A program made the position numbers and the translations under genes. The notes beneath the pieces are model-generated. The model made no database searches and had not been told where the DNA came from. It saw only the letters and a program-made list of their open reading frames with translations. From Acholoe squamosa (taxonomy: Eukaryota > Annelida > Polychaeta > Phyllodocida > Polynoidae): DNA of 64,000 nucleotides. This document shows, in pieces, positions 3,385-48,480 of the stretch; the first letter of the stretch is position 1, and every line of letters begins with the position of its first letter. Where the stretch lies: positions 17,322,641-17,386,640 of the forward strand of contig OX439044.1 of NCBI GenBank assembly GCA_949317995.1, read 5' to 3'.

Positions 3385-3393
3385 GAGCAGCTC
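3385..3393. promoter_or_regulatory. GAGCAGCTC palindrome, first copy
   Basis: TGAGCAGCTCA context. This is the first of 13 exact GAGC[A/T]GCTC copies; the others begin at 6502, 6544, 9998, 21660, 22982, 23488, 25116, 26975, 28009, 30689, 33478 and 48004. The function is unknown. A protein-binding palindrome or the relic of a small repeat family are both possible. Confidence 0.4.
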
Positions 3394-3993
3394 AGACTGA
3401 CATCAGCTCATTTAAATTCAAGTTAACTTGAAGTTAGGTGAAGCCAATCTCGATCACCTCACGGTGTGGGTTAGTGAACTTAAATCGATATATTCCCATT
3501 GAACCTCTGGGAAGCTCCAGGCTTTTTCACCAAAAAAGTTTAGATTTCCTTTTTAGGTGACATGTGTTTTCTTCTTCTCAAGTTGGCAGTGATTTTAAAC
3601 AAATTGGATTTGTGAGAATGTTGCACGTTCCCAAACCCTTGAACCAGTCTTAATTGGATAGAGGCTTGTTGCCCCCGTTCCGGTTCTCCGCTGTCGAGTC
3701 CAGGCCACAGTGGTGTATATGGATCATGATAGCGTCTGTGAATGTGTAACGAAAGTGGGATATTATTAAACAAGCAGAACCTGTTTTAATAGCAATAGAT
3801 AGTAAAATACATAGTAAAAGTCTCATAGGTCGACATATGGAGGAAAGGGAAAGGAGACATCATTAGAGGAGTGAGGAGTGAAACACAAGAAATGACATGG
3901 GTAGGAAATAAGAAATAAAAAGAAACAGTAAGTGAAACAGTAAAGATGGGCGATCTATGGAGTGGAAGTTGATGGAGTGAGAGGATAGCAGCA

Positions 3994-4446
3994 GTAGATA
4001 AAGTAGAGATAAGGGTAACAGGTCGTTTCAGACCCAAAGTCATTTCAGACCCAGTCATTTCAGACCCATGGTCATATCAGACCCAAGTCATTAGGACCCA
4101 TGTCCATTTCAGACCCAAGTCATTTTGGACCCATATGACATGTCTTACATCACAAACCCTCCCCCTGGCCTACTCCGGCGGTGCCTGCAGCCCCCCTCCC
4201 ACATTCCAAGCTGGTCACTGGATTGGCTCCAATGAAACGTGCGGTGAGGCCACTACTGGACCACCCTTCTGGATCCGCCCCTGACTAGTGTTTCATGCTG
4301 ACTCTATTCATGCATTATGCAGGCTCTAATTGAGTCTATGGGTCTGAAATGACCTGGATCTGAAATGACCATGGGTCTGAAATGACTATGGGTCTGAAAT
4401 GACCGGGTCTGAAATGACTTGTATTCGTAGATAAAGTAGAGATAAG
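3994..4446. mobile_element. Foldback (inverted tandem-repeat) element with 20-bp flanking duplication
   Basis: The left arm (about 4026-4136) is a run of roughly 16-bp units of the type TTTCAGACCCAAGTCA. The right arm (about 4337-4420) carries the reverse complement (GGGTCTGAAATGAC), so the arms can form a long imperfect stem. The core of about 200 bp contains CTGGATCCGCCCCTG at 4269-4283, which resembles the right terminus of a hAT-type MITE. The sequence GTAGATAAAGTAGAGATAAG occurs at 3994-4013 and again at 4427-4446, immediately outside the arms. I read it as a target-site or template duplication, although 20 bp is long for a cut-and-paste element. No coding capacity is seen. Gene conversion or a segmental event could also have produced the flanks. 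Confidence 0.75.
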
Positions 4447-5935
4447 TAAAGGCACTGCTGTGGCAGAAACCAGATCCCTATAATGACAGCTTCAAAAATG
4501 TCATTGCCATCAATCAGCACCCCACTCCTCCTGTAGCCTCCATCTGATCACCCCTTCCCCAGGTGGCGCCAGATGTAGTGTGCCGCCCGCACACCAGGTG
4601 TCACATGATGCCTTGTCGTTCTACCATACGCCACATGGGGGCGGGTGGGTGTTTGTAGGGTGTGTGTCGTTAACATGTGCTCAGTGGTGGTTCGGGTGTC
4701 ATGGTGTTAATAGTTTAGTCGCTATCAGCGCAGTCACGCCATACGTACATGCTGTTTTCCTTTGAATCTGATGTTACAGAATGCTGGCGCACAGGGGCTG
4801 ATTCGTCAGATAAAAATTGAGAAAACAAATGAGCCTCCTGTGTTTACGAGTAAAATTGTTAATTGGTCCAGGGGATTCTCTGAATCTATATTGAGGTTCC
4901 AGGATCTTTAGTAGGGGGCACCATTGCTTGGTCTGATACCTAGAGAATAGGCCTGAGCAGAGAGATAGGCCTGAGCACTGCTAACAGCCAGCATTATGGG
5001 TACTTCTCTTTGTTAACTTGAAAAGCGAGTTTTTAGGAGACACCCTGGGGCCCTGCATTTTCAGTCATTTTGGTGGTGCGAATAAGTTTAAAAAAAGATG
5101 GAAATTTTGTATATAAGAGGCAGAATTACTTAATGAATTTGTAGTGTCATTAAAGTAGGAGTCTTGCAGGAAAAGGTATTCAATTACAAAGTTTTGTAAA
5201 TTTTGAGAAATTGTCAATATTGTACAGACTCAGTTGGTTGGCAGCCATAAGACACTTTTTGCCTCCAATGGTGAAGGTATATGATGTTGATCCATGTGTC
5301 AACTTTCCAGCCTTTATTGGCAATGTGGTGTGAATAGCACGGTTTCGGTGGGAGTTATGCGAATAGTGGCTTGGTGGTGCGAATAACCTGGGTGAGGGAG
5401 TGCTGATGCAACAGGATGAGTGCACAACTCATGGGAGCCAATCACAGGCTTTTCACTTTTCGAGTTAACAGCACTTTACATTGCTACATTATATTTTCTA
5501 TATGATATCTACCAAGCAGAGCACACAAAGAGTCTGAATTTAAGACGCTTTCGCAGAAGTCCTTGAGCCTTTTGTGTTTCAATGCACAACGCCCCCTGGC
5601 TTCTATATATTGTATTACATGAGGTGCCTCCCTGCCAATTTACCACTGTCCTCCTCACCCTCTCTCAGGTGAGTGATTCAAGATCTAACCTTGTAACCAA
5701 TCACTGCCCTCAGGTGCATAGAAACTCCTTTTATCATGGCCCTTTTTTTTTTTGCATAAGCCCTACCATAAAAGACAAACCTACGAGGAGGAGAGTGATG
5801 ACCTGGTCAACGATTGACTCTCAGCGTGAAGAGTGATGATGCAGACCACACAGGCCGAACATCTGACCCCATGACCTACGGATCGACACGCTAATTGGCT
5901 GATTTGTAAATGGTCTTTATCTAGGTACGCTAGGT
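4447..5935. other. Spacer, no gene recognised
   Basis: AT-rich, low-complexity sequence. The open frames at 4580-4765, 5180-5425 and 5582-5836 are short and show no family motif. Nothing beyond isolated homopolymer runs is visible. Confidence 0.5.
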
Positions 5936-6370
5936 TCAACCCCTAACAACAACCCCACAGTGGAACCTCCCCTCAGCCTCCGCCGCCATCTCCCCACTTA
6001 CAGAGTGGAGCCCTCTCTGGTCAAAGGGGGCGGCCGCGCCTGATTTGCCAAGGTCCGGCCGGAGACGCCCAAAGACGGTCGGAGAGGACCAAGTCTTTAT
6101 CCTATCGGACCCCTGGCGGTTTATTACATGACCTTCTATGGAAAGGCAATTTGGGCTGCGGCCGCCCCCTTGGCTCATTCTTATTCCGACCACTGGTATC
6201 GAGCGTGCTCGGGTTATCGCGGCTTGGCCTGTAATTTGCTGCTTGTTGCTGGTAGCTGGCGCGTATCTGCACGGCCCTGATTGGCCAATCTGACTAGCCT
6301 CGATCCCATTAGACACTGGTCGTTAGGTGGAGGCCGCAATAATCTCGACCCCGCGCGTCCAGTTGTTGAA
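5936..6370 (-). promoter_or_regulatory. CpG-dense promoter-like block with palindromic CCAAT site
   Basis: This block is clearly richer in G+C and CpG than its surroundings and contains two NotI-type GCGGCCGC sequences. GATTGGCCAATC at 6279-6290 is a perfect 12-bp palindrome presenting a CCAAT box on both strands. On the minus strand an ATG at 5989-5987 begins a short frame starting MAAEAEGRFHC, which has the look of a first-exon start, but it stops at 5936 and I see no convincing GTRAGT donor. The minus-strand frame across the block (5936-6316, 126 codons) is probably kept open by low TA content. The promoter role is inferred. Confidence 0.4.
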
Positions 6371-8835
6371 AATAAACAAGAGTTGGTCTCGTCGGGTGTG
6401 GTTGTAAACGACAGATGGGTGTGTGTATTGGGTTGTGTTGGGTTTGGTGTGGGCGGCCACTGATCACCGAGCTACTCCTTGTATTGACGGGCTCCATAAG
6501 TGAGCTGCTCCCTGTCTTTGTGAGACTGACCTACTCCTGTAATGAGCTGCTCTGTAGGTATATATATACCTTCAGGTTCTGTAGGGTCACTGCACTGAGC
6601 CACTGAATGTAGGTACATGGACACACGATACGTTTTCTATACTGACTTAGCAGGATAATTTGATAGGTCTTATCAGTAGAACTTGCTGGTAACAAGCTCC
6701 AGCAATGGCCGCGCCCCTGCTACCTCGGAATAGTGACATGTTTTCCAAAATGATATAATACAGAAACGAAGACTGTCCTGTGTATGTTTCAGTACTGCAT
6801 CTTTGGAGCGTGCCCTCATTTTTTCCCCCTGTGTGTGTGTGTGTGGGGGGGGGGGGGGTCTTGTGTCGGGCACATGGTCAAGCAACACAAACTTCCAACC
6901 CAAGTGTGTAACATCCGGCGTTGATCCCCTCCTTCGTCGTTTTGACGTCATCGCTGGTGTCGTTTGTAGCGTTTCTGTGGATTAGGCCAGTTGTCTGTGA
7001 TCCGTGCTCAATCATTCTGGAACAATGGAGACCATCATGGCCCCACCTTCAACAACTCCCCGCCTACCCATCTCCCAACCGGTTTTGTACTCACGATTTT
7101 GCCTCCCAATTTACAAATTTACGATCGCTTGTTCTTCTCTCTGAGAGTGAGAGGCACGTCACTGGACGCACGGTTCCGCAATTTGTATGGTTTGATTGTG
7201 GTGCCAAGCCTACTCTTAGACTAGTCACTCCCTCTTAAGTAACCTGTCGCCGTCTTCCCTAGAAACAGTGGATAATAGGAAAATGCAAAGACAACTTTCG
7301 CGATGGACTTGACCAGGCTCAGTTTATTTGGTGATAGGGCTTTTGGAACTCGTTATGACTATGGAATTTCATAAATGAAATACGAAAATCAGGCGGTTCA
7401 GCAAATTTGGGAAATAAGGGTCGGGGATAAAGTGAAAAGGATATAGTAAAAGGAAAGATAAAATCCATTGAAAGGAAGGTGTTAGGCTAATGATAAATGT
7501 GCCTATCTGCTCATGATAAATTGCTTTTACATTCAGATTGGTTTTTATCAGACTCTCACAATGGCCCCTGTTGCCTGCATTGGTCTACGTATGTTTATGT
7601 ATCCTGTGGCATTACCAGGAAATAACGTCTGCTTGACTGCTTACTTAATTGAAAACCATTTTCATAAAGGCATAGTGACTAAGAAAAAAAGAAACTTTTC
7701 AAGCCATATAGAAGAAAAATGAGCGGCCACTACAAATGGATAATCTGTGTGCCCTTACAGGGGCATCCTAGTCGCGTGGCTGCTCAGCTAGGACTATGCA
7801 CAGAGAGTGGTAGGCAGACTGTGTACAGCAATGAGTAACAGACCCAGTCTGTCAAGACAGATTGTGTCAGCGAGCAGGCAATGGAAGGCAGTGCTCAGGA
7901 GGTAAACCCACCACCCAATGGTTCCCCCACACATAGCCTATACTGGCCTCCAGGGTTTGGGCAGGGCTACATGACCACGTAACATGAAAGCTAATGCTGA
8001 TCCTAGTGTGTCGGCTTAAGGTCCCACCTCCACCCTGGAGGAGGGGGTCCTTGTGTACCAGCCGGACATGGATGTGACATACATCCCCACCAAGACACGC
8101 GAACACAATTGACGCCCACCTCGCCCACCAAAAGATTGCCAGTAAGAAGTGGGTGTCTGTCTTCATGTCAGCTTAGTAGAGCCAAGTTTAATTCTACCAC
8201 TGTTGGACCCAGTCCCAGAGTCTTGTCTGCTCAGCGATTACTGTCAGGGCGGTTTGGACACTAAGATCGCCCCTTCCTCCCAGTAACGACACTAATTGAT
8301 GGTATGTAATTTCCCTCAGACTTCAGGCAATCGCTAATCTGCCTCCAAGATCTAGTAGAGCTCGGCCTCGTCAAATCAGATGCGCATTATGGGTTGATCC
8401 TGTAATGCATTTATCGTAGTAGTTAGGTCGCCTTGTGCTGTTGATGTACTGTGTAGGGCCTCGATCTGCAGTGAAGCATTCAGGAAAGGAAATATCAACA
8501 GAGACTGAATGCCAAACTTGGGAGCGTAAAAATAACGAGATTGAAAATGGACAGATGTACCCAATTTCCCCCATGAGTCACTCTATCACATACCTGACAT
8601 TATTGGTCAGTGCTTATTATTTAGGTGGTGAGGGAAATATGAACAGTTGATCGTAGACAGACTATACCACCCCCCCCCCTCACCCCACATGGGGCACACT
8701 TCAATTGCAACGATTCTCAGGTCATAATTACAACCCCCGGTAATCGAGGGAAATCTAATTACCCAGGTATGCGATAAGCAGGGGTGGTGCATGGACTTAA
8801 TGCCTGGTGGAGGGGATTTCATTTTCCGGCTTTAG
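6371..8835. other. Spacer, no gene recognised
   Basis: Two GAGCTGCTC palindromes (6502-6510, 6544-6552) sit 42 bp apart beside GAGCTACTCC at about 6470. A (GT)n/G-run lies at about 6830-6858 and a C-run at about 8671-8679. No open frame carries a recognisable domain. Confidence 0.5.
6502..6552. promoter_or_regulatory. Paired GAGCTGCTC palindromes
   Basis: Exact copies at 6502-6510 and 6544-6552, with degenerate relatives GAGCTACTC just upstream and GACCTACTCC between them. The arrangement resembles a cluster of binding sites, but no factor is assigned. Confidence 0.4.
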
Positions 8836-11800
8836 CCTAAGCCATTACATTTAGTAGGCAGTGAAGGAAAACCATGTACTAGGCCGTCATATCGGGTCGT
8901 ATTGTAGGATAATGGTATCTAGTTAAGGATGTCTCAGACTTTATGATAACCTCTAGAGGCTACAATAATGTCGCCAGACGTGCCTGTTGTGGCAAGGCTA
9001 AGACCATTGTGAGTTTATAAACAGAACTTTGTTACTTCGAGGAGAGCCCCCACTTTTGCACTTTTGAAAATCTAATGCCCTTTAGTCCAGAACCTAAATT
9101 AGAACACTTGATATTGTTATAGCTACACAGTATGGTCATACGGCGGTCTCGCTGAGTAAGCAAATGGTATTACATGTATACCAATAATTATATGTTTCTA
9201 GGAAACTATATGGGTAAACTTTACACACTGAGCGCCTAAGAGTGCCTTATAATTGTGTATGTGTATACGACACGGAACAATCTGTGTCCTCCCTTGTCAA
9301 TCTTTGTTGTACGTTCTCCATGTACCCAGGACAGTACTTAATTGCGAAACCATCCACCATTGGCGTACCATCTAATTAGGTCTGATATCTCTGTAAATAG
9401 ACTAGGATAACAGGGATAATGGCAATGTATCTTTGGTACAAGGAGCATATTGAACCCGTGCTGCTATAGCCAATACTGATGTGTGTATACAAACACTCGT
9501 CGAATTACCTTAATCTCAAGTCTATGCTGATGTTTTATCACAAACATAAAGATAAATGGAATAGAAGACCGGATGTATGTAGCATGATCGGAAGGTATTT
9601 AATTGTGTATTAGTAGTAGATATACAATAAGTTTTATGCAGGTTACATAATTATGTGGGCGTATGTGATACATAAACCATACTTTTCTATTTTTCTAACA
9701 ACCAAGTGTGGATTTTCTGTACATGTAATTGTAGCTTTCTCTTAGAATTGCTATGATAACTGTGCACAGTCTGAATGGTCTACAACCCATTCTTCTTTAT
9801 CGTGACACAAGGGAGTGCCACACATTCATTGCCATGTCCCTAATTAGTTGACTTTTCTTGTGAATATCATCCCCATCTCTGTATAGTGTAGACATTCTGC
9901 ACCAGTGACAACCGTTTACAGCACCCTTTCACACGGAGCTCATTAAAATTGCTCCCTCATGTATTATGAGCTAGATTCAATAATGAGTAGCTCAGAGGAG
10001 CAGCTCATAGAGCAGGTTCTGTAGGGGGAGGGAAGGGAGGGAGCAGGACCACCAGCTCCACCACTGTTTGGTCGCACCCTCTTTGATTTTGAATCAATAC
10101 CCTATGAATAGTATCATTTCCTCTGCTAACACCTCCACTAACGTCCCTCTCCTCTCCTACCTCCTCCACTTTGGAACCTATGGACTCCACACTAGGTTAA
10201 AAGAACCTATTCCTGCCTGCCTTCGATTAAGCATGATCATTCTTGTGGCCCTGTTTTCTTTACTGCTTGAACAGGCTTTGAAGATGTCATTTAAAAATTG
10301 TGAGATGGGGGTATGATTGGGGTGCTGCTGTTGAGATTGTCTATTTAACACAATGATAAGCATGTAATAATTAGTGCCTACGGCGACGAGGCGCCTCGCA
10401 ATCAGGTATCTGTCAGTTCTTATTGCTTCCCCTGCTGAGAAGTGTGGCAATTACACCCTTGGCACAGTCAGAGGTAGCTTTGCCTTAAGTAGGCAATAGG
10501 GAGCCTAAGTCTCGCGATAAACCATGTCGTAAAAATATTTCTGATTTGGGAGAGTTCAAAGTATACACCCAGCTCAGATGACTTGTCATCTAGAGTGTCT
10601 AGATGGGTATAGGTAGCCATTTTGTGGAATCAGATGGTTGATACACCTAGATTGAATTCATGAGTAGTATAGTGAAATGTGCACCTGCGACATTATCAAT
10701 CATGTACATACAGTCCCTAAATCTTAAAGGCAACAATGCTTTTAAAGTCACATTATGACCCCCTAAACGGCGCTGCATGTGTGATGCTAGCTATCTAAAT
10801 CAGTGCTAAATAGAGGGCAATCAGCAGACAACCAGACATATGTAGTTGGCTAGTTAGGTGGACCTATGGAGGTCGTCGAGCTAATCGTGTCCTGCTAAAT
10901 CTTCCTAACGAAGCCTGGAGGGTGATTCTTAAAAACTCACGAAACAGAATTTCAATTTTCGTCAGGACACAAAGGTCATCAAATCAAGGCCTAATCAAAA
11001 TTATAACTGACATTTCTGCATACTATCTGCATAAAATAGGCATATTTACACTGGAAATCTATGATTATTTCAAAATATGGCTATCTTCTGTTTGTTGCCC
11101 AATGCATGACATGACCACAAAAGGATCGTCAGTTCTTTTAGAATTGCCCTCCTGAGAACAAAACGTTATATCATGCTGACCCATCTATGTAGTACACTAG
11201 TTCGTCACAGCTATAACATATATAGGTTCCTAGGTGAACAATTAACCTTGATTAGCTGTAGCACATAGGGGAAATGCACGGATTAGGTATAGGAAATCCA
11301 AAATCAATATAGATTATGGTGTATACTTCTATTGACAGATGGCCAATTGGTTGGTCTGATTCCAGCATACCAAGGTACAAAACAACTTTCCCCGTAGACA
11401 ACAATTACAAGAATTATACATAATACTGCATATAGACGGCTAGCTAGCGGAACAACGAGGAATAATTAGCGATCCAACAGAGAGAAAGAGGAATGGGAAA
11501 TTCTGTTTTTATGAAGATATTGATAGGAAGTATGAAAAAAGGTGCAAAACCTGTCCTGTGTGAGCTTCATATGCTAATTTGACATATTCTACACCTGATT
11601 TTTCATTTTGATAGAATGGTCCCCTGCTTAATACATTAGAAATTCAGTTTTATATGAAAACTAGCATTATCCTAAATACTCTTGACCCATCCTAACAAAG
11701 TGGTACTGAAGTCGCACATTTAGAAACCTAGATATAGGCTTCTCAAGTGGTATAGTGTCAAAAATATCAGATTTTCCAAAATTAATATTTTAGATTTGAA

Positions 11801-16340: not shown

Positions 16341-16342
<2 letters not shown>

Positions 16343-17326: not shown

Positions 17327-17329
17327 TCA

Positions 17330-19205: not shown

Positions 19206-22200
19206 TGGTATAATATCTACCAGGTGCGGTATCAGCAATCTCAATTGTTGATTCTGCTAAATAAAAATCTTTATCACCAGCTTCTTGTGGTAATTTCCGA
19301 CTTTTCAGACACATTCTATGGTAGTGTTCTACAAGCCATGATAAGTCCCCAGTGGCTAGGACCTGCTGTATGGGCATTTCCATGTTGAACATCTGATACA
19401 GTATGGGACGTTGCCTTGTGACAGCAGCTGCCCATCATGTGAGTTCCTTGGGAGAGCTGTCGGCAGAGGGCATGGTGATGGGAGTGACCCTTGGTCCTAT
19501 ATTACCTTATAGACCTGGATCTTCTCGCCTGGCTACGGTGCTCTGCCCAAATAGGGTTGGGATTTCATCGACGTTCCTTCTGATGATTTGACACTGTGAT
19601 TCATCAGTTGCAACTAGTGTATACGTATGAATAGGACTGTCAAATCAGGCCCACACCATTGCAATGCGTCTTGATAGTGGTTTATATGGTAGGAACGAAG
19701 AGCTTATGCCTTTGTTCCAAGTGAAGGCTTATGTCTGTTATTCTCGGTACTTATGTAGCCAGGATTCTATTCTTTAAAAAAATGATATGCAGTCCTAACC
19801 CTGCCTCCATTATCCATGATACAGTTATAAACAACTAAATCAATTAATATTTTACCATAAACACCTCTAACGGCGGTTATCACTTCATCAAATTAGCTAG
19901 GAAGCACGATGGCTGCATTAAGAGTTCTGTTAAAGAAACAGAAGATGCCATCTCCAGGCTTTTTATGTCAGTCAATGAATGTCAATTTCACTAAGAGGTA
20001 ACCTTGTCAATTGTGTCCCATTTCTGCCTGGTGGACAGGAAAGAATCGTGTTACAGAAGATGTAATGAATCTGTGTTTTTTAGATAGTTCTGTATTAATA
20101 AGGATGCTAATGCAGCATGTTCTATTTGTATAATAAATCCCATAGTAAACCATGCATCATGAAGGATGAAGGGGATTAGCGTGGACTAAATAACGTGGTT
20201 GGGCTATTGCAAGGGGAAACATAACGTTTTAACTCCTATCCATCTACCTATCTTCTTTTGACTAGTGTATTCTGCTCGAAATGATATTTGGCAAATATGG
20301 CAAGCTCACTAGTTTTAATCTGAAAGAAATATAATGGACAGGTTTATGAGAAAATATAATAAGATCCTAAATATTTTCATACACTTCATGCTTTACATTT
20401 TACTTTCTCCTTGGTAACAAAAGGAGCACATCTATTGCCACCAATTCCGCACAAAGATGTTTCTTTTCTCACTAATTCTGGGCAAATGAATCAGATAAGC
20501 TCAGCCATACAGACTCATCAGTCTGTCAGAGATTATGGTCCGTCAGGTTGACATGCGTTTTAAGACCCAAATCCACCCATCATCATCCCTAACCTCTGCC
20601 CTGGAGTAACACCTAAAGTCTTAAGCAGTCTCCTCAACCGCTCACTTTATGAAAAGCCTCCTGGTTTTTAAACACTGCAATGTCTCTTTCTTCCCTACCT
20701 TAGGCGAATTTCACTAGGCATCCTCTCTTTTTTCCGTCCCTTTAGTAATTAGTACCATCAGTTTGTCAGGGTATTTAATTGCATCGAAGTGGCAGGATAA
20801 CGAGTCTTGGGCCCACCAGAGCCATCAAGATGATCGACTTGTAATTTCGCCGGTTAAAATGCACTCTGGAGAAAGGACTGTTTGGGTTAGGGATGGGATG
20901 AAATACATTGTTGCAAAGCATTTGGAAGACAATGGAGTTAAGGCATTGTCGTAGGCAATCCTGTAGTATTTATTTAGTCTAATGAGAAATGTTGCTCCGT
21001 CCCCCATGTTGGATAAATGATAGTAGTATTATGGAGGCTTTGTTCCCTGCTGTAGCAGGTAGTTCTTGCGAGCCTTAAGGGCATTGGGACATCACTCCTC
21101 TTAACGAGTTTAGCAAACTATTTACAATCTATTTGAATGAAAATACTCATACAAGAGTAGACAGATAGCACTAAGCATGCTTTCTTTTCATTTTAAGTTA
21201 CATGAGATAATATACCTAATGAAGATAACATTGGACACTTTGAGGATATAATAATGAATAGCCCAGTGTACCTATAAAACCGATCAGGTAATATTGGTGC
21301 TGTAGCAGTCATAATTGGGCATTCTATTAAGATAATTAAAACGGGTCAATAATATTTAATGTAAATGTCCATTTGACGCCTGAGGTCTAATCAGAATTAA
21401 TGGGAACCTGAGTCCCACATTCAGGTAGGTTCACGAGCACCTTAGTTACCAATGGGGCTAGGTATGAGGCCAGTAGGTGACCGACAAATCTCTCCTCATT
21501 CCACTCATGCCCCATTTCCCTTATTGAAAAGTATTGAAAAGTGACAAGGCGGGCATAGGCTGCCCACCAGAACCCAAACCAGCTCAGTCCCTAAGTAGTC
21601 AGTAGTAATCTGGTCTGACTCTGGTGGAAGTATTCGTGAGCAGGAGAGAGCAGCTGGAAGAGCAGCTCACACTGCCAACAGTGTTTATCACTCTATAAAC
21701 CCCATTCAACTAACACCAGCCATTCAGATTGCCATACACGTAGAGTTACCTAGTAGTTAGACCCGTTCCAACACATTGTCAGTGACCATCAGAACAGGAC
21801 ATGGCACCGAGTCTGGCACTACAACAACCACCCCCAGCCATTGAATTGGCCACAGAGCATGTTCTCTGGGTTTTTTTTTTAATGAATGGGAAAAAGTCAT
21901 TTTGTTTTGCGATAGTTTTCATGTGAACTATTTGAGTACAAGGTGTGTGGATAGTTATTGACAGCCCAGACAAGATGATTGTATCCGACTGAATTTGCTG
22001 GCTCAAACACACAGAGAGGTGAGGGGTTCTAAGTTTGATTCATTCTCTATCTAAATATTGTATTAATTTCTGTCGGAAGAAGGCATTGCAAATTAGAATT
22101 AGCTCTGATCGGCGGAGCAATTTCAGATCTGTTTATCAAATAACCCCTATTTGATGAGCCCTCGAGGGCGTGTGTTCATTGATTTTGTTTCATCAATGAT

Positions 22201-22613: not shown

Positions 22614-23914
22614 TGTGATTATGACCAGTGACCTCCTCCTACATGTCCACATTGTTTGTTTCTTTCTGACTCTTCAACTTGTGTCTCTGTGTAATAACTA
22701 GGGGGTTAGTTCTACTCAGGGTCAGATATGAACTCAGGTGCTTTATGTCCCCTTCCATCGGTTACTATACTGAACGTGTGTTCATCCAAATCATTGGTAC
22801 AAACATTTTATGTACACATAATTATGTAAAGTATGGTTGTAAATACGCAAAGTCAGAACACCCACCACATACCCTTCACCACTAGCAAAACTGGAGCAAA
22901 CTAGGAGACCAAAATAGATAGAGGAGACTCACTGGGTTGTTATTATTATGTCCCATGAGCACTTGTGAGCAATACAAGTCTGAGCAGCTCAGAAACCAGA
23001 GGTGATATTGAGATGTGTGTGTGTACTCTGCAGTACAGTGTTCAATTGTTGAACATGGTGGAATGCAGGTGGAACAGGAACATAATGTTGGGTTCTGTAA
23101 TCTGCCTTATTTATTTTTTGTTTGTGTAGATCAAAAGAAAATTACAAATATGTGAGATTATAAGATATTATTAGCTACAATATACAATATACTCATAACC
23201 GTTGCTCAAACTGTATACTGCGCTAAGACACCATGGAATCCCAATGATGAATCAGAGTAGTTAACGTTTTCAGTTCCAAGAAAATACCATACCGAAAGGA
23301 AAAGCCTACTCGTGTTACTAAGAATGTAACACTACTGAGATTTCAATTATTACACCTAAAATTATTGAAAATGAACATTTCATTGAATCATGGCAAAACA
23401 ACAGGGAGGAAATCATAACTTTTATATGCAGCGCACTAACTCGTAGAACTCATAACATGGTGTTTGGTGTGTATGATCGGTTTCTATGAGCTGCTCATCA
23501 CGTTCTGCTCATGTTACTGTCAGACACGTGAGCAGGTAACTGGAGCAGGTGGTTGTTGAGGCCTGCAGTGGGGGAAACACCTCCTCCATGTGCTGACCCC
23601 TGACCTATACATGTACCTGTAAGTGGGTCTAAGTGTAAATGGGTGCAGTACATGCAGGAGCATCTCCTCCAGGGGCTGGGAATGTGTATCCTTGCTCCTG
23701 TATAAGATGTTAAGGGATAGGTTATTTGGATTATGTACAAGTGATAAAACTCATTTTATCTTCCTATTATGTTGGCCTCCTACCTGTGTTATGAGCAGTA
23801 ATCCACCACAGACAGCTTATACACGTAATCCAAGCCTAGTCAGACGAGTTAGGGATATATCTCCCCTTGTTGCTAAATCTCTACTAACCCAAGCCGTAAA
23901 CCAAACCAACCTAT

Positions 23915-24913: not shown

Positions 24914-25749
24914 ACATAGTTGTACCGATAGATGCTCGTCCTAATGTCAGAAACTAGTGTTAAGCTGAGAAAGACAATTTGAACTACACATCGATGTCAA
25001 TTTGATGATTATGCACAATGCTCTAGTGAAAGGACCTTTCCTTAGAACTACGTCTTGTATCAAATAGTAGGAAAGAGTGAGAGTAGAATGGTCTGGATCT
25101 CTTAATTAGTTCTTAGAGCTGCTCCTCTCGAGGCGTGATGAAGGAGATTGTTTTAATGCAAAGTGGGCTAACACAATGCCACGTTAAGGTACTTCTGTCA
25201 TTAGGAGTTGACACATTGAATTCATAGTAAATTAGTACTTCCCTTAGGTGGTGAAATGTTTGCTCCACACAGACTTTCCCCCAAAAAAATACAAACGATT
25301 ATCATGATATGTAATGCACAGACACACATGTTGTACCCCCCCCCCCACCCTAAACTCAATCCACTCAAATGAAATTAAAACCCTACCTCTCATTTGCATA
25401 ATAAACCCTTTAGTTACACTGACGTTAGCTCAACAACGCTCAATTGCCACACACATCTATTATTCTACTCCAGGCATATTAGTTTTCCATCAATCCTCAC
25501 ACCTTTTGCCAGCCCCCCCCCCTCATACCACCCCATACACCTCACACAACCCTCATCCTACCATCACAGTATCTCCACATTCCATTGACAATTGTTCATG
25601 CTGATTACATATAGTTTGCCAACTCTGAGCACACTGATGCAGAAAATATCAATTAGTGGATTAATTAGTACCTATAACAAGACCATGGCCACCCATATTA
25701 CGTGTGGTGTTTCCTCAGGATGGCCTCCACTTCCAGCTCCACGCCTGTT

Positions 25750-25810: not shown

Positions 25811-28797
25811 ATAGAGTTGGACCATGTTAGCGGTAATACAAAACTAGGGTGTTGTCTGCGGATTCAGTGAGGGTCTAGTGAAGAAAATTAACCTACTGGT
25901 AGCTTTATCTGAATTTATAACAACAATGCCCCCAATTCTAGGTCTCAGTGTATACGGCACATGGCTATTGTATTATTGACCAATGGGAGGTATCCCTGGC
26001 ATATACTGCGGAGTCGGGGGCTGAAGGTGTTAGTCATAGTGCCGTCGGGGTCTAATGGCGGCCCCCAGCTGATAATGGCTATGTGAGCTATATATCATAA
26101 TTGTGGTTCGACTTGGCGATGTTCTATATACATGTATCAATTTCACAGGATAGACAATGGGTGAAAGCATCTTTCCTTTCACGACTAGGATCTTGGCATT
26201 ATTTGACAAGCATCGAATTGAATATATTATTCCACTTCAGTAAATAAACCACTAGACTAAGTATTGCAGAATTACAAACCTATTGCGTCGTATTTATGTG
26301 CAGAATTAAACTTGACATTCAGATATCAAGTCCAATTAAGATACCAGGTATAATGAGATGTGACTACAACACTGGCGCGCCCTGTATGAGACAGGCCAGA
26401 CGCCGCTAAACAATGTCGACTTTATGAAAGCACCAACTCGGCATTTCCATTACTCGGTCGACATTTCCATTACAGTGAAACTTGAGCAAGCAGGAAATAT
26501 CCTGAATGGGGCGGAGTTAAGGATCTGCGTTGGAACATGTAATTCAGTATAAATTTAGTTTGATTTCTCTGTGTAATGATACTGTTAGGAACATATGCCT
26601 ATTAAAGTAGATTATGATAAAATGTCGTAGTATTTCCCACAAACAGACAATCTGGTTTTGTCATAGTCGACTGTTTAAACTGTGTACCTCGAATCCCATT
26701 AAATATGCTCATCATGGGATTAAAAAAATACATCTAATATTATAGCTAGGTTAAAGTCTTGTTACATTCTCTATGTAGCTGAGTGTAAAGAATTTGACTG
26801 ACATCTGAAATGTTTCAATCCTCAAACATGAAAGTACAGACGTCATCCATGGAGAACACCGTTAGCTGTGTATACCTACCCAACAGTCCTACTAAGACAC
26901 TTAACCTTTATTAGCATTTGAAGGCTAATTTAGAGAAGTGTCCATAACATTTGAAAGCTGCTGGTTGCTTGGGGGAGCTGCTCTAGAAACTTCCTGGTAC
27001 AAGCTCAACCTAAGCTTCAAACTATAAACGTGTGCTAATGTAAAAGTATTGTATGTATCTTTGAAGCAATTTCAAACAGGTTTCTTTTTAAATTGAGTTC
27101 TATCTCTGCAGCTGAGTTATACCCTATACCCCGGTTTGTGTACGTAAATGGGCTAGGTATTACAGTAATTTGGTGACTACAATATTAACTCGGAAGAGTT
27201 ATAGGCACGCTATGGGGTCCCCAAAAAGAGGCAGATATGGCCAAACTTTGGAAATAAAGCATCACAGAACTGTAATTTCACAAAAATATGTTCATATACA
27301 GGTAGAGTGATATGTTAAGATCGTGAATATGTTGAATGGTCATTGAATAAATCTGTGATGGTTTCACAATTCATGGATTACAAAATGTTGTATAGAAAGA
27401 CCAGAGAGGCGACCCTTTGGGTCTCCAATGTTAAAGAATACACATTCCATTGGGAAACCTTTTTTCCTGCCCTTTTTGTGTGCTGTGTTAACCATAGAGA
27501 TGTGTGTTAACCATAGATGCTGATGTCATCACACATGACAGCCTCTATAGGCCACTCTCCATGCAGATCCCTCACCCATGCCTCCTTCATATATGAATCA
27601 TATAGTCTGTGCTGTGAGAGTGCCTCTAGGGTGTTGGAAAGATTCAGAGTGGTACCGCACCACAAGCCCCCCCCCCCCCCACCCACCCAACCTCTTCTGA
27701 GTTAGGAGCGACTCTGGCGCTTTCCTCTAGTTGTCTTATTGTGGATGTAGTCGGGTGAATTAACCACAATAGTAATATAATTATTATTAGATATAATCCT
27801 GTGAGGTGACCACAATGCCTGGTAATATTGATAGAGTCTGGTGAAGTGACCATTGTGCTATTAGACAAAATCTGGTAAGGTTACTACAGTGGTGAGAGAG
27901 ACACAGTCTGGTGAGGTGACCTTGAGAGACCCCGTCAACACCTAATTACTGACCCCCGTGCCCAGATTGATGATTGTGATATTGGATTATGATTAATCTG
28001 TCTGTCGTGAGCAGCTCAGTGAGAGGTACTGAGTCGGTGTGAGCCGGTCAGGCAATCAGCTCACATATAGATATGATTGCTGTGTGAGTGGCAGTTTAAG
28101 AAGGAGTGTGCTCAATACACTGAGAGGGGTTATCCTTACACCTCTGACCATGTATGACCCTAACCAAGGACACCACACCAGGCCTGCAGTGGTAAAATGA
28201 CCCCATCCCCTGAAGCTAACATATCTTCAGGTGTTACCGTATCATATGAGTCATAAATTCAGCAAGAAGCCTATATCAAAAGTCCTCTTGTAGTTAGGTT
28301 AAAATACATTGGTCGATATTAGAGACTGTATTATTCTTTTATACTCTGAAAACAGTGTGTAACATCCATTGGCAAAATGCTACCTTCTTATAGACTAGAC
28401 TTATGATCTACAGCTTGCAGCCCCCCTCCCCCTTGCGTGGAAATCATGGAATCTAATGTTGGTAGATTCCAATGCCATCAAGCACTACTTGTGAGTATTA
28501 GAGGAGGGGGTCTGGTGTTCTGGGGGTAAATAGGATTATTGAGTTGGTCTCGGTGAGGTAGCCCATCAGGTAAAGATGGTCCTGACAAGTTGTTATTCCA
28601 CATATTGACTCCGGCCCCTAGACCCCTACAGGGCCCCATACAACTAGTAGCAGTAGAGGTTGGGGATAGGGAGTCTTGGTGTCTGTTTTAGGTATGAGAT
28701 GCAATATATTTGAGAAGATCTAGGTCAATGTAAATGTTGTAGATCAGAGCAATGCTACAACAGTATTTATAAATTCTGTCGACAGAGAGTTGTGATG
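25811..28797. other. Spacer, no gene recognised
   Basis: AT-rich spacer with palindrome copies at 26975 and 28009, a C-run at about 27666-27680 and the degenerate tandem repeat listed separately. No convincing coding frame. Confidence 0.45.
27745..27935. repeat. Degenerate tandem repeat (GTCTGGTGAGGTGACC type)
   Basis: Five diverged copies: GTCGGGTGAATTAACCAC, ATCCTGTGAGGTGACCAC, GTCTGGTGAAGTGACCAT, ATCTGGTAAGGTTACTAC and GTCTGGTGAGGTGACCTT, at intervals of roughly 35-55 bp. An old minisatellite. Confidence 0.6.
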
Positions 28798-30202: not shown

Positions 30203-31024
30203 TAAAAGTGCTAGGTGAATTGGCATGAGGCATGGAGAATGGGATTCAATATGATATTGAGTTAGTGTAACGTTTCATTGGCAGAGGGTACACAGAGGAC
30301 GTATCCATGACTGAATAGATGAGGGGCTTGAGGAGAACCATGGCTAAAGGGGTTGGTTAAGATGTCTAATGCTTTGGCTAATGTGAACTGAGGTAGTGAA
30401 ATAAAGGTAATACTCAAGATATGAGGCAGATATGTAGCTGGTAGGGCAGTATGAGAGGCCTCAACTCTTGAGATAACAGAGGTAAGGTGAAGGAGGTATA
30501 AGGGAACCTTGGGTTGGTAGGAAACAGACCCTTAGTGGTTAGGGTTCCTGGATGGTTGAGGTAGAGGCATCTCCATGAGTAGCTCTATAGTTATTTATAG
30601 AAGCACTCTGCAGCGGAACCTGCTCCTCCAGCCCCTCCTGTAGGTACACGAGTGCCACCTACAGGAGCACCACCTGGAGGAGTGGAGTGAGCTGCTCAAG
30701 TGTGGCATGTGTTGCTCAGTGTGGAAGGAGAGGTGAGGGCTGGTCAAGGAGATGCATCCATGCTGGGTGTGTATGTGTGTATTGATATAGGCGTTGGTAA
30801 GGGGCACAGAAAGTATGATTTATCAAGGAAAAGAGGAAATGCATTAACAGTGTCGATAACAGGTCTGGGACAGTGACTATATTATGTAAAAGAAAGTACT
30901 TGATGTCCGGAAAATACACATATTTTTGCTAAATCTTAATTACAATTAGTGGAGGTTAAATCAACCAAGCAAAACGAAAATATATCGATTGCTCTTGATG
31001 ACCTTGGTGTAATGAACAAGCAGG
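30203..31024. other. Spacer with palindrome cluster
   Basis: GAGTAGCTC (30577-30585) and GAGCTGCTC (30689-30697) lie among GGAGCACCACCTGGAGGAG-type purine-rich repeats. No gene recognised. Confidence 0.4.
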
Positions 31025-31688
31025 TTAACCATTTCCATCCCTGTATTTTTTAAATACATAAGCAAATGTCAACGATCAGTGAATAATAGGCCTCGTTGAA
31101 TACGGGCAGAAGCACCTCTGGGAATACGATCCTAAATTATTCACTGTGAGTTGACATTTGCATTTATGCCATGGCCCTACAGGGTTAAATTGCTTTAAAA
31201 TAAAGAAACACAACCATATTTACTGTTTTTCAACGTGTCAAGTCGTCTCGATTTGTTTTCATCCGCCATGATACCTTGCTCGACGAAGTAGGTCATGTGA
31301 TACGGAGCTAGCTGCTGGTGCCAAGCACTTTTAGTTTCGAATTTGGTATATGGTTTTTAAAAGTATTTTACCAAATATAAATGGCTGAAATAGTCAAATA
31401 ATATCATGTTATGAATTGTTTAATCTATATCTAAGAATAACCGTCATATTTGAAATAGAAAAATTAAAGTGCATAACATTTTAACCGAAACTAAAATCAT
31501 TTGGCACCAACGGCTAGCTCTGTATAAATTTCAAAATGGCGCCGCTGGATATGCGAGGATCGTATTCCACCCCCCCCCCCCCATTGAATACGGCGTAAGT
31601 AGTACTAATCTATAGTGTCGTCGATATTAGCCATGGCATAAAGTGCTATAGTACTGCATATTTGCAGCACAGGGGGTTAAAGGGTTAA
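31025..31688. mobile_element. TTAA-bounded nested palindromic element
   Basis: The left end TTAACCATTTCC (31025) and the right end, read inverted, TTAACCCTTTAACC (31688) both start with TTAA. Several inverted pairs are nested inside: GGGAATACGATCCT (about 31119) with AGGATCGTATTCC (about 31556); GGTGCCAAGCACTTTTAGTTTCG (about 31317) with its near-inverse (about 31487-31508). A separate inner hairpin joins AGCAAATGTCAAC near 31062 to GTTGACATTTGC near 31151, itself ending at a TTAA (31185-31188). TTAA ends starting CCCTTT are typical of piggyBac-type MITEs. No coding capacity. A C-run interrupts it at about 31570-31582. Confidence 0.6.
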
Positions 31689-31928
31689 TGAGTACTCATG
31701 CTTGTATTACATTAACAGAAATCCTTAACAACTTTTCTTCATGCTGCTCTCTCTTCTCTGAATCACTTAAATTCATAACCACATTTATTTTGAGGTCGAA
31801 CAAGCATAGTTTACTAATAAAACACATCAAAACAATCCATTTTATTGCAAATATTGTTGTTCACCAAGTGGCTCTACTTGCCATGGATAACAACAGTGTG
31901 TCATAAGGAATCCATCCACAGAAGCACA

Positions 31929-31987
<59 letters not shown>

Positions 31988-33456
31988 ATAACAAGGAAGC
32001 CAGGTGGCTTCCACAAAATGCCTCCTATGCCATTTGCAATGATGGCCCATACCAGTGACTATGCCTGGAACATATGTCTAGCATTCCTGACTCCATCCTC
32101 AGGTGCCTCGGTTTATATAATGACCCCTAACTAAACCAGTTTTCAATAAAACACTGTCATTGCTCTGCAATATACGTTTATGCAATCAAGGCAGTTTTCA
32201 ATTAAATAAAATTGGTCCAACTGATTTAAATCTTTTATCTTGTTAATTTGTAGAAACTACTATTAATTGACGGCTTATTCCATTTATTCTGTTTATTTCT
32301 AATAATATTTTTCAGCAGACTTTGTGTAGACTTGATGCCATGTAAACCTGACCCTAGTACAGTTGTAGTTGTGATAGCACCAAGTCTAGCACCTGTTTTA
32401 TTCACTGTCCAAACACTAGAGACATGTGTCACGACTACAAGATATATTTATGATTACACTGATCAAACAGCTGAAAACAAGAAAGGTTTAAGTCAACCTC
32501 CTCAAGCATTCAATGCGATGGGTGCACTTTTTTTTCCAGAAGTCTTATAGAAGCACTGGTGCGTTGTTACTGCTAACATATTTCAAGTACTCACTAATGA
32601 CAAAGCCGGCGTGGCTAAAACCAAGATGTGAGTACCCTAAGGGTTAAAATCACACTTCTGGGTGATTTCTCATAACAGCATGGGGTTGTAAGGGTTAAGG
32701 GTTCATATGGGTGCGCCGAGTTAACTCATATCACACGTGCTGGAGGTCTGGGGCGGCTACATGATAAGCAGGTAGGGTTACACCCATGTGCCCCTGACTC
32801 CAAAGACTGTGCCTCATAACCCCCTTGGTCCAGGTCCCAGGTGAAACTTAGATATGGGTAAATGTGTATAGCTTCAGTAGCATTAAGCTCAGTTATGAAA
32901 TTAATGGCTTCCAGGGTTGTTACCTTGACCAGACAGGTTCCAATCTTGGTAGCATTCACATATCTATTATGCCTTCATTGCTAGTTCATATCTCGTCTTC
33001 TCTTAAGAATCCCAGAGAGGGTGAAAAATAAAGCATATGCCTGTAATATTATACAAAACAACATCATCAGATTGTACACAACATCTGAACTGGTAAAATA
33101 CATACATGTGTTATCTGTATTCTGTATATAGTATGGGCTCTGACCAATGATGACTTCTCCCTCCCCCTACCACTGATCTCTAGCACTCATTCCTTTATAC
33201 CTCAACCAATCAGTTGGACACAGTCAGACACGTTGCTACAGATAATTAACCCCTCCATGTTGACACTTCTGTCCTATCTATTCCCTTTGGCCAGTGATCA
33301 ACTGACAGCGGTTGGTCAGCCCTAACGACTGTGTGGATGGTGTGGGTTGGCTCCAGACTTGCTTACATTCTGGTAGGGTTATGGCAGGCATGTAGAGAAC
33401 ATGCTGCCTACATGTCCACACTCACCAGGTGGGTGGGGCCTACAGGACCCAATGAG
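31689..33456. other. Spacer with (CT)n
   Basis: Contains the (CT)n tract and short GGGTTAA words near 32641 and 32693 that may be ends of another TTAA-type MITE. No coding frame recognised. Confidence 0.4.
31931..31986. repeat. (CT)n microsatellite
   Basis: 56 bp of uninterrupted CT dinucleotide, purine-free on this strand. Confidence 0.98.
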
Positions 33457-33470
33457 CCACCAGATGGCAG
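33457..33470 (+). promoter_or_regulatory. CTCF-like site, forward
   Basis: CCACCAGATGGCAG is an exact match to the degenerate bilaterian CTCF core CCASYAGRKGGCRS. It lies 8 bp upstream of a GAGCTGCTC palindrome (33478-33486). Binding is inferred. Confidence 0.6.
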
Positions 33471-33806
33471 CATCCAGGAGCTGCTCATGTAAACAGTGGT
33501 GAGTAACTCAGTGGCTTCTTTGGTAAAGTGTCAGTTGGACCACATGGTTACTTCCACTGGAGGTTCTTTCTGGGTATATGAAGTATTTTAGACATTGAGA
33601 TGACCTATGGTGCACTGCAGACTGTCTGTTTGCTAATTGATACACATGTCTGGTTTCTAACATCTTATGAAATATGCTAAGATGTAGAAAGTCTCCCTGG
33701 CTTCTAATAGTATTTAGACTGGACACTCATGCCAAAAATTGTAATCTCTGAACTTAAGACATGCATTTTGGTTTTGGTGAATATATCGAAGTATGTGTGA
33801 TAATAT

Positions 33807-35488: not shown

Positions 35489-36548
35489 CTACGGAGCCCC
35501 TAATAGGACATAACAAAAATAATTTTTTCACCGGAAAAATATTCTTGTGGGTACAGAACAATTCTTGCGGGTACAGAAACAAATCTTGTGGGTACTGAAC
35601 AATTCTTGCGGGTACAGAAACAATTATTGCAGGTACTGAACAATTCTTGTGGGTACAGAAATAATTCTTGCGGGTACTGAACAATTCTTGTGGGTACAGA
35701 AACAATTCTTGCGGGTACTGAACAATTCTTGCGGATACTGAACAATTCTTGGGGAAACTGAACAATTCTTGCGAATACTGAACAATTCTTATGGATACTG
35801 AACAATTCTTGCGGATACTAAACAATTCTTGCGGATACTAAACTGTTCTTGTGGAAACTGAATGATAATAAACTCCTCAAGCCCCAACATGAATGTTTCT
35901 GTACCCGCAAGAATCGTTTCTGTACCTGCAGGAATAGTTTCGTACCTGCAAAAATATTTCTCTACCCACAAGAATAGTTGTTACTGAGAAAAAAATACTT
36001 TTTACATGTTTTAAACTCTCAGAATTTAGAAATGCTACTGTGTCCAAAGAATTCACCTGTACATGCACGAATATAATTTGCATGAATAGTATGTTCCTCT
36101 ACCCCAAAAAAAATTATTTCTGTGCCCGCAAGAATTTTTCAGTATCTGTAAGAATTGTTCAGTACCCGCAAGAATTGTTCAGTACCCGCAAGAATTCTTC
36201 AGTATCTGCAAGAATTCATCACTATCTGCAAGAATTCGTCAGTATCCGCAAGAATTCTTTAGTACCCGCAAAAATATTTATATAGTGGCAACCCTATGTC
36301 CTTTGTCAAATTGATTGTTTTCTAAAAAAGAGTTTTTTTCTGCACCACAAAGAATTCGTTATCAGATGGAAAAAAAATTGCAACCACAAAAAAATATTTC
36401 TGCACCTATAAGAATGCCCCTGTACCCGCAAGAATACCCCTGTATCCGCAAGAATTCTCCTGTATCCGCAGGAATGTTCCTGTACCCGCAGGAATTTTTT
36501 TATGAACAAAAAAGATCTTGTTGGTATGTCCTATTAGGGGCTCCGTAG
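35489..36548. mobile_element. Large foldback element with tandem-repeat arms
   Basis: The ends are a 24-bp inverted pair: CTACGGAGCCCCTAATAGGA at 35489 and TCCTATTAGGGGCTCCGTAG ending at 36548, extending inward through CATA. The left arm (about 35540-35875) is about 16 copies of a 20-21 bp unit AACAATTCTTGCGGGTACTG. The right arm (about 35890-36290, with a further block 36395-36500) carries the reverse complement CAGTACCCGCAAGAATTGTT. The structure is a near-kilobase palindrome with a short loop at about 35860-35890. No target duplication is obvious. The 174- and 101-codon frames inside are repeat translations. Non-autonomous; the mobilising enzyme is unknown. Confidence 0.85.
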
Positions 36549-43867: not shown

Positions 43868-43874
43868 CGTCCTA

Positions 43875-45165: not shown

Positions 45166-45169
45166 TTCA

Positions 45170-45360: not shown

Positions 45361-46023
45361 AGGGAGTTGGACAGGGAGATGGGTATGTCTGTGTTGGGGG
45401 TGTGCTATGTATGAATGACCTTGTCTGCAAAAATATTTAAACTGAGTAAATCATAAAAAATAAACTGACTGTCCATATTTAATGCTCATGGTGCACAAAA
45501 CAAGTAGAAGCTAGATAGATCTTTTTTACTGGTAATAACTATGACCCCCTCATTTTGGACATGGCAACATGGCGCGGGTGTGACATGAGGCTTGTATCGA
45601 CCAGATTGGTTGTTTTATGTGAGTAGATACTCAAGAGGCAAGCCCAAATTCAACAACCTTGCAAAGATAGAAACACCGGTAATATTCAGGAAAAGTCCTC
45701 CATAGGATGGTATAGATAGGTTTACCATGAAATCGGTGATGGGTGTAGGACGGGTAGGTCTGATCCAAAGCGTCACGTCACTGTAGACATTAGGAGCATT
45801 AAGTTGTAGGAAGAGGAGCAATACACGCATATGTACACTGGGCTGTACTGACTGGGTATTGCTGGTTAGCATTTAGACTTACTCAGGTTGAGCTGTGTTC
45901 AATATCAAATGAAGATAGGGGGAGATTATACCTTTCATTGTGCTCTTAAAAGGGATCCAGTAGGACTTATTATTTGCTTGGCTGGGGCACATTAGATGAT
46001 GACCCTAGTGTGTCTGATCAGGT
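45361..46023. other. Spacer, no gene recognised
   Basis: AT-rich, with no array and no protein-like frame. Confidence 0.4.
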
Positions 46024-46371
46024 AAAAATCAGGGGTGTGAAATATCCGCCTTTAGGCGGAAATCTGCTTTATTTAAGTCCACTAGGACCGTTCCTGAGAT
46101 CTGTGTAAATTAACTGAGAAATTGAAATACCATTTGTATGGGGGGGGGGGGGTGTGACTGACTGAGTGAAACTGACTGTCAATGTTATCAATGTTTGATA
46201 ACTTCCAAACTGGTTACTACTATCATCTAAATCATATGTAACCCCCCTAAAAGGTGCTAACGTGTATCTAATTGGCTATCTGAACAGATTTGATCCAATG
46301 TAAAATTGACTTTAAATCCTGGAATATAATTCAACCTAAACCGGTCTCAGCATTTCACACCCCTGAAAAAT
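46024..46371. mobile_element. MITE with CAGGGGTGTGAAAT ends (hAT-like)
   Basis: A perfect 14-bp TIR: CAGGGGTGTGAAAT at 46030-46043 and its reverse complement at 46352-46365. AAAAAT directly flanks both sides (46024-46029, 46366-46371). hAT elements normally give 8 bp, so the duplication is short or eroded. An inner hairpin CCGCCTTTAGGCGG lies near the left end, and a G-run at about 46141-46152. Confidence 0.85.
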
Positions 46372-46803
46372 AAAGCAGTAGACTCATGTAGCTTGTTTTT
46401 TGGCCATTGTCCGTACAAATACATTTATATATACTCTGCATTCCACGTCCACTTATTTATTTGTACATCATTAAATGCTAAATCCCTAATGTCAGCATGA
46501 CATGGAATCAATCCAGACAGACTTGAACATACCAAATTTCAATAAACACATAAATTCAAAGAAGGGCAGAAGGCAGGGTCATTTATAAATACGGTTATTC
46601 TGATATATTTGAGACAAACTGGAATGATTGTATCGTGTTATCCCCGCCGTCTGCCAATACAAGTCCAGAACGTAGAGCATCCTGTCGTGCTAACTTGCCA
46701 GGGGTGCGCTGATCATGGGCGCCTGGTGGCATGGGTGTGACTTTCATTTATTATCTTACATCAGATACACAAACAGGGGGCTATGAGGTGCTCTCTGGTT
46801 ACT

Positions 46804-46824
46804 GAGCCGCTCATGGAGCGGCTC
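46804..46824. promoter_or_regulatory. GAGCCGCTC/GAGCGGCTC inverted pair
   Basis: The C-centred variant of the dispersed GAGCNGCTC palindrome occurs twice within 21 bp in mutually inverted form, making a hairpin-capable TGAGCCGCTCATGGAGCGGC. Confidence 0.45.
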
Positions 46825-47284
46825 ACGCCACCCACAGGGATTAATGTGGGGTGGTGGATGTTACAGGATGGGGGAGACAGGGAGCCAGGAAGTGGCCAAA
46901 CATCTGTGCATGGGTCTGCCAAAGGATTGGGTTATTGATCAAAGGATGGCATTTACTCATATCTAGGCCAACGTTGATTTATTTTCTCAAGACTTGTTGA
47001 TCCCAACCCACTTGTCTGGAGGATGCAATCAGATGTGGGAATATAGGGTTAGGTAACTAAGATATGTAGACCTGTGGAGCAACCTTCCAGATCTCTGGGT
47101 TTAGAAAGGTTCAGATGCAGCTCAAATTGAGTTGTCCCAAAAAGCCATGACACCGTATAGGGGAGGTTGATGTAGTGATTTTTCAATCCACATTAAAAAG
47201 TAACTATTTTCAACTATCCACCATTCTAAGTATGTGGAATCGAAGGGGAAGGTATTGGATCTCAATTTAAACATTATATTACAT

Positions 47285-47356
47285 AGCGAAACAGTATGTT
47301 ATTATACAAAAAAAAGGTATAGCGAAACAGTATGTTATTATACAAAAAAAAAGGTA
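47285..47356. repeat. 36-bp tandem duplication
   Basis: AGCGAAACAGTATGTTATTA followed by TAC and an A-run is repeated at exactly 36 bp (47285, 47321), with a one-base difference in the A-run. Recent slippage or duplication. Confidence 0.9.
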
Positions 47357-48480
47357 AAGAAGTTACAAATTTTCCCAGAGAAGACACTTGGATTAAGATC
47401 GGTTGAAGTATCGCAACATCTCGTGCATATTGCTAGAAGTGACAAGAGTTGGTGCAAGCTGGCCCCAAACGCCCATACCGTAGGTCTATGCTTTAGAGAT
47501 TAAAACATTGAACAGAATTGTTCACAAAGAGGCCGAGACAGTAGAAACATGACGGATGGGTGGGGTAAGAGGAGTACATTTACCACCGAAATGGCTTCAT
47601 AACAGGTTTGTAAAAACAATTTGAGGTGCCCTGGTCTGTACAGTGTTAGATTAGATCCTTACTCAAGGCCTCCTGATATCATTTTCGCCAGTAATGGCGA
47701 GAAAAATCCAATATGGCGAGTGTACAGGGAGACGATGGGTCCCGGGGCGGAAGACGGGCATGGCGACGAAATGTTTACGGGATGTGTGAGAGGAGGCCCC
47801 AGGCCGAGCGGTCTTCCGCCGCCGCGTTCATTCCACGCTTTGGCGTGGAAGCATTCTATATTTCTGGAAATAAATAATTGATCTTTCAGTCATAATATTA
47901 TTGTATGTATCATGATCGTTATCAATCTGAGCAAATCAAAATTCACAGTCTCACAAATCACGGCGTCTGTTTGGAGAAGTGAGCAGTTCTTACGTGACTA
48001 GGTGAGCAGCTCACCACTTACCCATGTGTGGCATGACTCAGATATGACTCTTCATATGACCTGCATATATACACACATCACTGAATGGGAGTGAGACATG
48101 GCATGTCTGACAGACCAGCTTATGGACATAGATAAAAAGGAGAAGGTAAACGTGTGCAGTAAATCATAAACATAGGATGTCATGTTAATCCGTGTTTACT
48201 GAGATCTCATGTCATTCATGCAGATGTATATATGTAATGCTGACCCTCGTATTAGACTTGCTGAAGTCCCACTCAAGCATCAATTGCCAGCATCCATGTA
48301 TTGCCTTTCTCCTGCAAAGTGATATGCTTGGTTGAGCAGGGGTAGGATAGGGTCCCAGGGGTGGTAGGGGGCAGGGGTTCTTTACCAAAAGGTTGCCAAC
48401 AATACTTGTCCAAACCTCTTGCATTGAAAGCATTTATAACCTTGCTTCTGGAATAAACATAGCATGTTGACATATCCAGT

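Follow-up and report, generated by a model that had tools for sequence, protein, structure and literature searches.

Clustered GAGCWGCTC palindromes in the genome of Acholoe squamosa as candidate sites of a putative dimeric DNA-binding protein

The question raised by a 64,000-nt stretch of the genome of the polynoid annelid Acholoe squamosa (C10:17322641-17386640; hereafter, the window) is why one short palindrome, GAGCWGCTC (W, A or T), recurs there in 13 exact copies. On balance, the palindromes appear to be sites of a putative, probably dimeric DNA-binding protein which are clustered in non-coding DNA of the window and which are found also in retroelement promoters.

The 13 sites start at precisely the coordinates listed in a first-pass annotation of the window, which also had stated that well under one copy is predicted. 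That expectation was borne out: dinucleotide-preserving shuffles of the window (n = 100) gave an expected count of 0.30 with a largest value of 2, third-order Markov simulations (n = 25) gave 0.56, and Markov models of orders 0-4 applied to the tandem-masked window predicted 0.26-0.45 sites. A genome-wide count (1,481,437,319 bases; 63 contigs), as proposed in the annotation, returned 71,505 sites compared to 7,948 for the control word GCTCWGAGC which has identical dinucleotides and is 9 times rarer. A backward control, which contains CpG, occurred 2,172 times. For HAGCWGCTC, which comprises six words, the forward count was 35,698, corresponding to 5,950 per word compared to 35,750 per exact word. 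Chance and dinucleotide bias thus were ruled out as the cause of the 13 sites by the shuffles, the Markov simulations and the control word, and the dinucleotide or trinucleotide frequencies that the annotation had entertained as an alternative do not account for them. When all odd palindromes of the window with arms of 4 bp were tallied, GAGC ranked first with 15 occurrences (13 with an A/T center and two with a C/G center) and the next attained six. Site density was ~4-fold higher than the genome mean (13 vs. 3.1 per 64 kb; P = 2e-5). Twelve of the 13 sites precede 34 kb as the annotation had noted (binomial P = 0.003, with the boundary picked post hoc). The sites and their closest variants are as follows.

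3385..3393, unstranded, GAGCAGCTC palindrome, exact match
6502..6510, unstranded, GAGCTGCTC palindrome, next site 42 bp on, start to start
6544..6552, unstranded, GAGCTGCTC palindrome, 6 bp upstream of a TATA-like run
9998..10006, unstranded, GAGCAGCTC palindrome, variant GAGTAGCTC at 9985
21660..21668, unstranded, GAGCAGCTC palindrome, GAGCAGCTG at 21648
22982..22990, unstranded, GAGCAGCTC palindrome, surrounding DNA without a second match in the genome
23488..23496, unstranded, GAGCTGCTC palindrome, DNA without a second genome match, half-sites downstream
25116..25124, unstranded, GAGCTGCTC palindrome, exact match
26975..26983, unstranded, GAGCTGCTC palindrome, exact match
28009..28017, unstranded, GAGCAGCTC palindrome, outside a repeat at ~28800-30203
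30689..30697, unstranded, GAGCTGCTC palindrome, outside the same repeat, GAGTAGCTC at 30577
33478..33486, unstranded, GAGCTGCTC palindrome, exact match
46804..46824, unstranded, pair of GAGCCGCTC and GAGCGGCTC with C or G center, starts 12 bp apart
48004..48012, unstranded, GAGCAGCTC palindrome, in the CpG-rich stretch 47501-48250, GAGCAGTTC at 47981

Matches in the window with zero, one and two mismatches numbered 13, 16 and 107, respectively, compared to 0.56, 9.2 and 109 in the simulations, and the excess therefore resides mainly in the exact sites. Replacement of C by T at position 4 (with its mirror) was elevated at six occurrences against a background of 0.60, as was C or G at the center (two against 0.10), and all remaining single-substitution variants were near background. 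A 180-kb random sample displayed only a mild excess (four sites vs. 0.95) without such a clean variant contrast. The spacing was equally constrained: GAGC and GCTC were separated by 1 bp in 15 instances in the window, whereas spacers of 0 and 2-12 bp each were represented once or not at all. The base that precedes GAGC in 30 half-site readings was T in 20, G in six, A in four and C in none. The flank-base tally and the substitution table together place the consensus near TGAGCWGCTCA with a tolerated core of GAG-Y-N-R-CTC. Half-sites crowd around the sites: 16 GAGC/GCTC tetramers were counted at up to 30 bp from 12 anchor sites compared to 3.6 expected, a value as high being obtained in 0 of 2000 random draws. 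Of five control tetramers, AGGC, GGAC and GCAG showed no rise within the same distance, whereas GGAG and CAGG increased up to ~2-fold over the distances tried. The offsets of the half-sites, read by eye, revealed no clear single phase and helical phasing was rejected. Partial relatives near many sites had been described in the first-pass annotation, which proved correct at 9985, 46804/46816 and 47981 (given as 47982), whereas only a half-site, TGCTC at 23506-23510, exists at the position given as 23510.

The main rival to a protein site in host DNA is that the window copies are relics of many long terminal repeat (LTR)-like or other transposon families, in which case the cluster would mark old insertions without a host role. 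This explanation is possible but rather unlikely. It draws its strength from the motif's carriers elsewhere, which were surveyed at 59 distinct places among the sites listed, all on contig C1 up to 2.96 Mb. The 43 loci that were read represent 51 of these places; of the remaining eight, seven are near 207 and 222-224 kb and the eighth is at 1.44 Mb. Alignment across the site sorted the 43 loci into 21 groups, consisting of 15 singletons and six similarity groups with 28 loci, including LTR-like units near TATA. Certain groups are local duplicates and not dispersed repeats, exemplified by L055 and L056, two 500-base stretches of identical sequence at a distance of 4 kb. The singleton L028 has an 87% relative in a random stretch (L017) from which the palindrome is missing. 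When the 43 site loci were compared with the window and 20 sampled stretches, just one had a relative that spans the palindrome. In the L030 group, TATATAA is preceded by three palindromes and followed by one, AATAAA being found ~175 bp further on, and in the L047 group, on the other strand, the palindrome is located ~120 bp upstream of TATATAA. Judged by this layout, at least these two repeat groups appear to be LTR-promoter-like with a palindrome near TATA, and the LTR-like units carry one to four palindromes near the TATA box. At these loci outside the window, palindromes are situated inside repeat copies close to what appears to be a promoter. Among 100 close-pair rows listed, 72 derive from a single 19-bp satellite (C1:7.177-7.180 Mb; C1:7176851-7180470) whose unit includes the palindrome. 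The other 28 rows correspond to 15 places, of which seven have a TATA box flanked by an inverted pair, six belong to one family and two are of other kinds; in the six-place family, an A/T-rich run lies between the paired palindromes and is TATAAATA in two of the six. Within the window, site 6544 also displays the palindrome-then-TATA order.

The flanks of the window sites provide the principal evidence against the relic explanation. With the palindromes masked, the 150-bp flanks on each side showed no mutual alignment at E 0.05, except for 14-bp and 13-bp matches and the overlapping flanks of neighboring sites, in agreement with the first-pass statement that the flanks do not align. One transposon family or miniature inverted-repeat transposable element (MITE) with alignable flanks thus was ruled out, and no single family explains the copies seen. 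The related claim that the motif is not simply a copied repeat is consistent with the window flanks, whereas elsewhere several repeat groups, some LTR-like, and the 19-bp satellite carry it. Self-comparison of sampled sequences, which includes repeats within a stretch, gave a repeat cover of 6.3% for the window compared to a mean of ~22% for 18 random 10-kb stretches; the repeats of the window lie outside all 13 sites. In a looser comparison of the window flanks with the fetched loci, no alignment that spans a site reached E 0.001 or better. Weak matches that overlap the site join 9998 to L043 (E 0.045) and 48004 to L020 (E 0.33); clear matches, of 6502/6544 to L005 and of 25116 to L018, lie off the site. 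In genome-wide queries, the 701-bp segment 22900-23600 that includes two sites matched only itself. Query 27900-33700 detected a repeat of ~1.4 kb at 28800-30203, and query 5900-10200 detected a repeat of 80-100 bp at 6638-6739, neither of which includes a site; as only the best 40 of 4,754 and 2,045 candidates, respectively, were scored, weaker repeats over sites could be hidden. These three queries cover eight of the 13 sites, the other five being 3385, 21660, 25116, 26975 and 48004. The best 40 candidates for the interspersed ~1.4-kb repeat are distributed on 14 contigs with long matches of 81-91% identity. The 6638-6739 repeat is a single copy here, and an inverted pair 130-170 bp apart at four C1 places among the matches listed resembles MITE ends. 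Had the flanks drifted neutrally beyond alignment (30% or more), ~45 one-mismatch relatives also would be expected per 13 exact sites, whereas the excess seen was ~7. This argument is weaker if the copies each stem from a different young, low-copy family.

It is improbable that the cluster is an artefact of composition, codons or a satellite, such that the word is merely common in the genome. The 71,505 genomic sites are of mixed origin and should not be equated with host regulatory sites, and their number is inflated by satellite copies and by exon-like copies: loci L043 and L045 resemble coding exons by eye, with Glu-Leu-Leu or Glu-Gln-Leu codons. Sites on C1:0-3 Mb form clumps, some in duplicated segments, with gaps of <300 bp in 12 of 58 cases compared to 0.35 expected, and genome-wide there are 10,119 close pairs 1-30 bp apart compared to 104 expected. 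The much rarer control word and the low Markov expectations described above nevertheless argue against an artefact. Moreover, the sole tandem array found over a window site is a weak 2.5-copy row (30682-30730) that covers site 30689. The window was designated non-coding by the absence of Pfam domains: after removal of tandem arrays and low-complexity sequence, 269 open reading frames (135 + 134) of the 281 of at least 58 aa were scanned, and no host domain but only RVT_1 was detected, by which a coding origin of the window sites was ruled out. Least probable is a structure in place of a protein site, namely that paired palindromes fold into a hairpin or cruciform, either at the TATA box or in the RNA of retroelements. 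The inverted arms of TATA-flanking pairs do reach 1-4 bases past the palindromes, and a few copies show apparent joint changes of the arm bases (A-T, G-T and G-C combinations). However, just six distinct sequences, several plainly related, are involved, most window sites occur singly, and a stable hairpin requires more than 9 bp.

A dimer-binding protein is therefore favored because the site is strict, symmetric and fixed in spacer, and recurs in unrelated contexts beside half-sites and some repeat TATA boxes. The protein would contact both of the identical 4-bp half-sites, in the simplest case as a homodimer. The window sites and adjoining half-sites, which are spread over non-coding and mostly unique DNA, would represent enhancers or promoters that answer to one factor, and at least two LTR-like groups would hold the same site near TATA most simply through use of the same activator. 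From these features of the DNA we infer protein binding, dimerization, activation and a regulatory role for the stretch. The first-pass annotation had suggested the site of a dimeric protein used across a regulatory domain; this suggestion is supported in part, as it fits a consensus that is strict and symmetric, a spacer of constant length, crowded half-sites and flanks without mutual similarity, but it is qualified by the many genome copies in repeats and in what, by eye, appear to be exons. Host and transposons both may use the same regulatory protein. A broader proposal, offered tentatively, is that a putative factor with a strict GAG-YNR-CTC dimer site is a proximal-promoter activator at positions that flank TATA, its site having been adopted by several retroelement lineages and being used in dense sets by host loci such as the window. 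If so, host regulation and transposon control would be connected through this factor. If a protein does bind, the motif would be a ready-made probe for a putative regulatory factor in this genome and a direct route to promoters and enhancers common to the host and its retroelements, and specificity would be simple to probe, given that GCTCWGAGC is available as a control of the same dinucleotide content.

A number of observations weigh against the protein-site reading. Markov models of orders 5 and 6 predicted 1.3 and 4.3 copies; their training sequence was the window including its sites, such that these models learn from the sites themselves. The exact window sites do not clump at short range (gaps <300 bp, 1 of 12 vs. 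0.71 expected), and the grouping of 28 of the 43 C1 loci by similarity counts in the same direction. Other stretches totaling 230 kb (23 x 10 kb) contained four sites, three of them within 271 bp, compared to 11 predicted by the genome mean, and therefore much of the genome total may be in local arrays and repeats. The 20 kb left of the window contained two sites. No gene was tied to the sites by the Pfam scan of the window, and no Pfam domain was detected in the 10 of 65 open reading frames scanned in the 20 kb to its left. A TATA box beside every site was rejected, as a TATA-like word occurs within ~60 bp of only five of 15 window sites. Finally, we know of no standard animal factor with a GAGCWGCTC consensus, and no known factor was identified.

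Homotypic clusters of transcription-factor binding sites and transposon-borne factor sites, the latter exemplified by human LTRs with p53 sites and rodent short interspersed nuclear elements with CTCF sites, are known kinds of arrangement. The window presents the multi-copy strict motif above background in DNA without a host Pfam domain that typifies homotypic clusters, and resembles these also in its half-sites and unrelated flanks. It differs in that the copies extend over 30 kb instead of being packed in one enhancer, and the likeness is one of sequence. As with transposon-borne factor sites, a regulatory-type site lies near repeat-family promoters and hence is dispersed, but more than one repeat group has the motif and the window copies tested are outside recognized repeats. 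The p53-type element, RRRC-WW-GYYY, has a two-base center and was ruled out: it shares the RRRC...GYYY style with the motif but differs in spacer, GAGC-N2-GCTC occurring once in the window compared to 15 times for GAGC-N1-GCTC. The AP-2-type element, GCC-YNR-GGC, has a similar YNR-center layout and was ruled out by its half-site, which is GCC and not GAG. The cyanobacterial HIP1 palindrome is dispersed roughly evenly genome-wide, a pattern that was ruled out for GAGCWGCTC by the clumping on C1 and among close pairs. HIP1 (GCGATCGC) is the highly iterated palindrome of cyanobacteria and, like GAGCWGCTC, is short and far above expectation genome-wide; it is bacterial and linked to DNA methyltransferases (PMC4390886), whereas GAGCWGCTC is eukaryotic, odd-length, without CpG and clumped. 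Spellings of the motif in International Union of Pure and Applied Chemistry (IUPAC) code were not found in the literature searched, the titles listed for plain-letter spellings were mostly unrelated, and no literature on mollusc palindromic motifs was found. The site cluster and the transposon-borne sites are of a known kind, and the novelty is modest; the particular motif was not found by these literature searches.

The 6502/6544 pair appears to be the best promoter candidate in the window, on account of the following neighboring features.

6001..6500, unstranded, CpG-rich and GC-rich stretch (CpG observed/expected 0.88; GC 0.56)
6279-6290, GATTGGCCAATC (CCAAT-type), inside the CpG-rich stretch
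6559..6568, plus strand, TATATATATA TATA-like run, putatively promoter-like
6587-6591, initiator-like TCACT, its A 30 nt past the start of TATATATATA

A palindrome is located within ~1 kb of five of the ten CpG-rich 500-bp rows. CpG is low across the whole window (observed/expected 0.43) and CA/TG is raised, which suggests broad methylation of the window. No RNA genes were detected in the window by ARAGORN or at Rfam gathering scores. The RVT_1 match (E 7e-10) corresponds to an open frame with a reverse transcriptase domain at 54912-55697. Minisatellite arrays of a 20-bp unit occupy 35541-36495 in opposite orientations, with inverted arms of up to 158 nt, and a 33-bp tandem array at 59268-60657 is open for 309 codons on the plus strand and in three frames on the minus strand.

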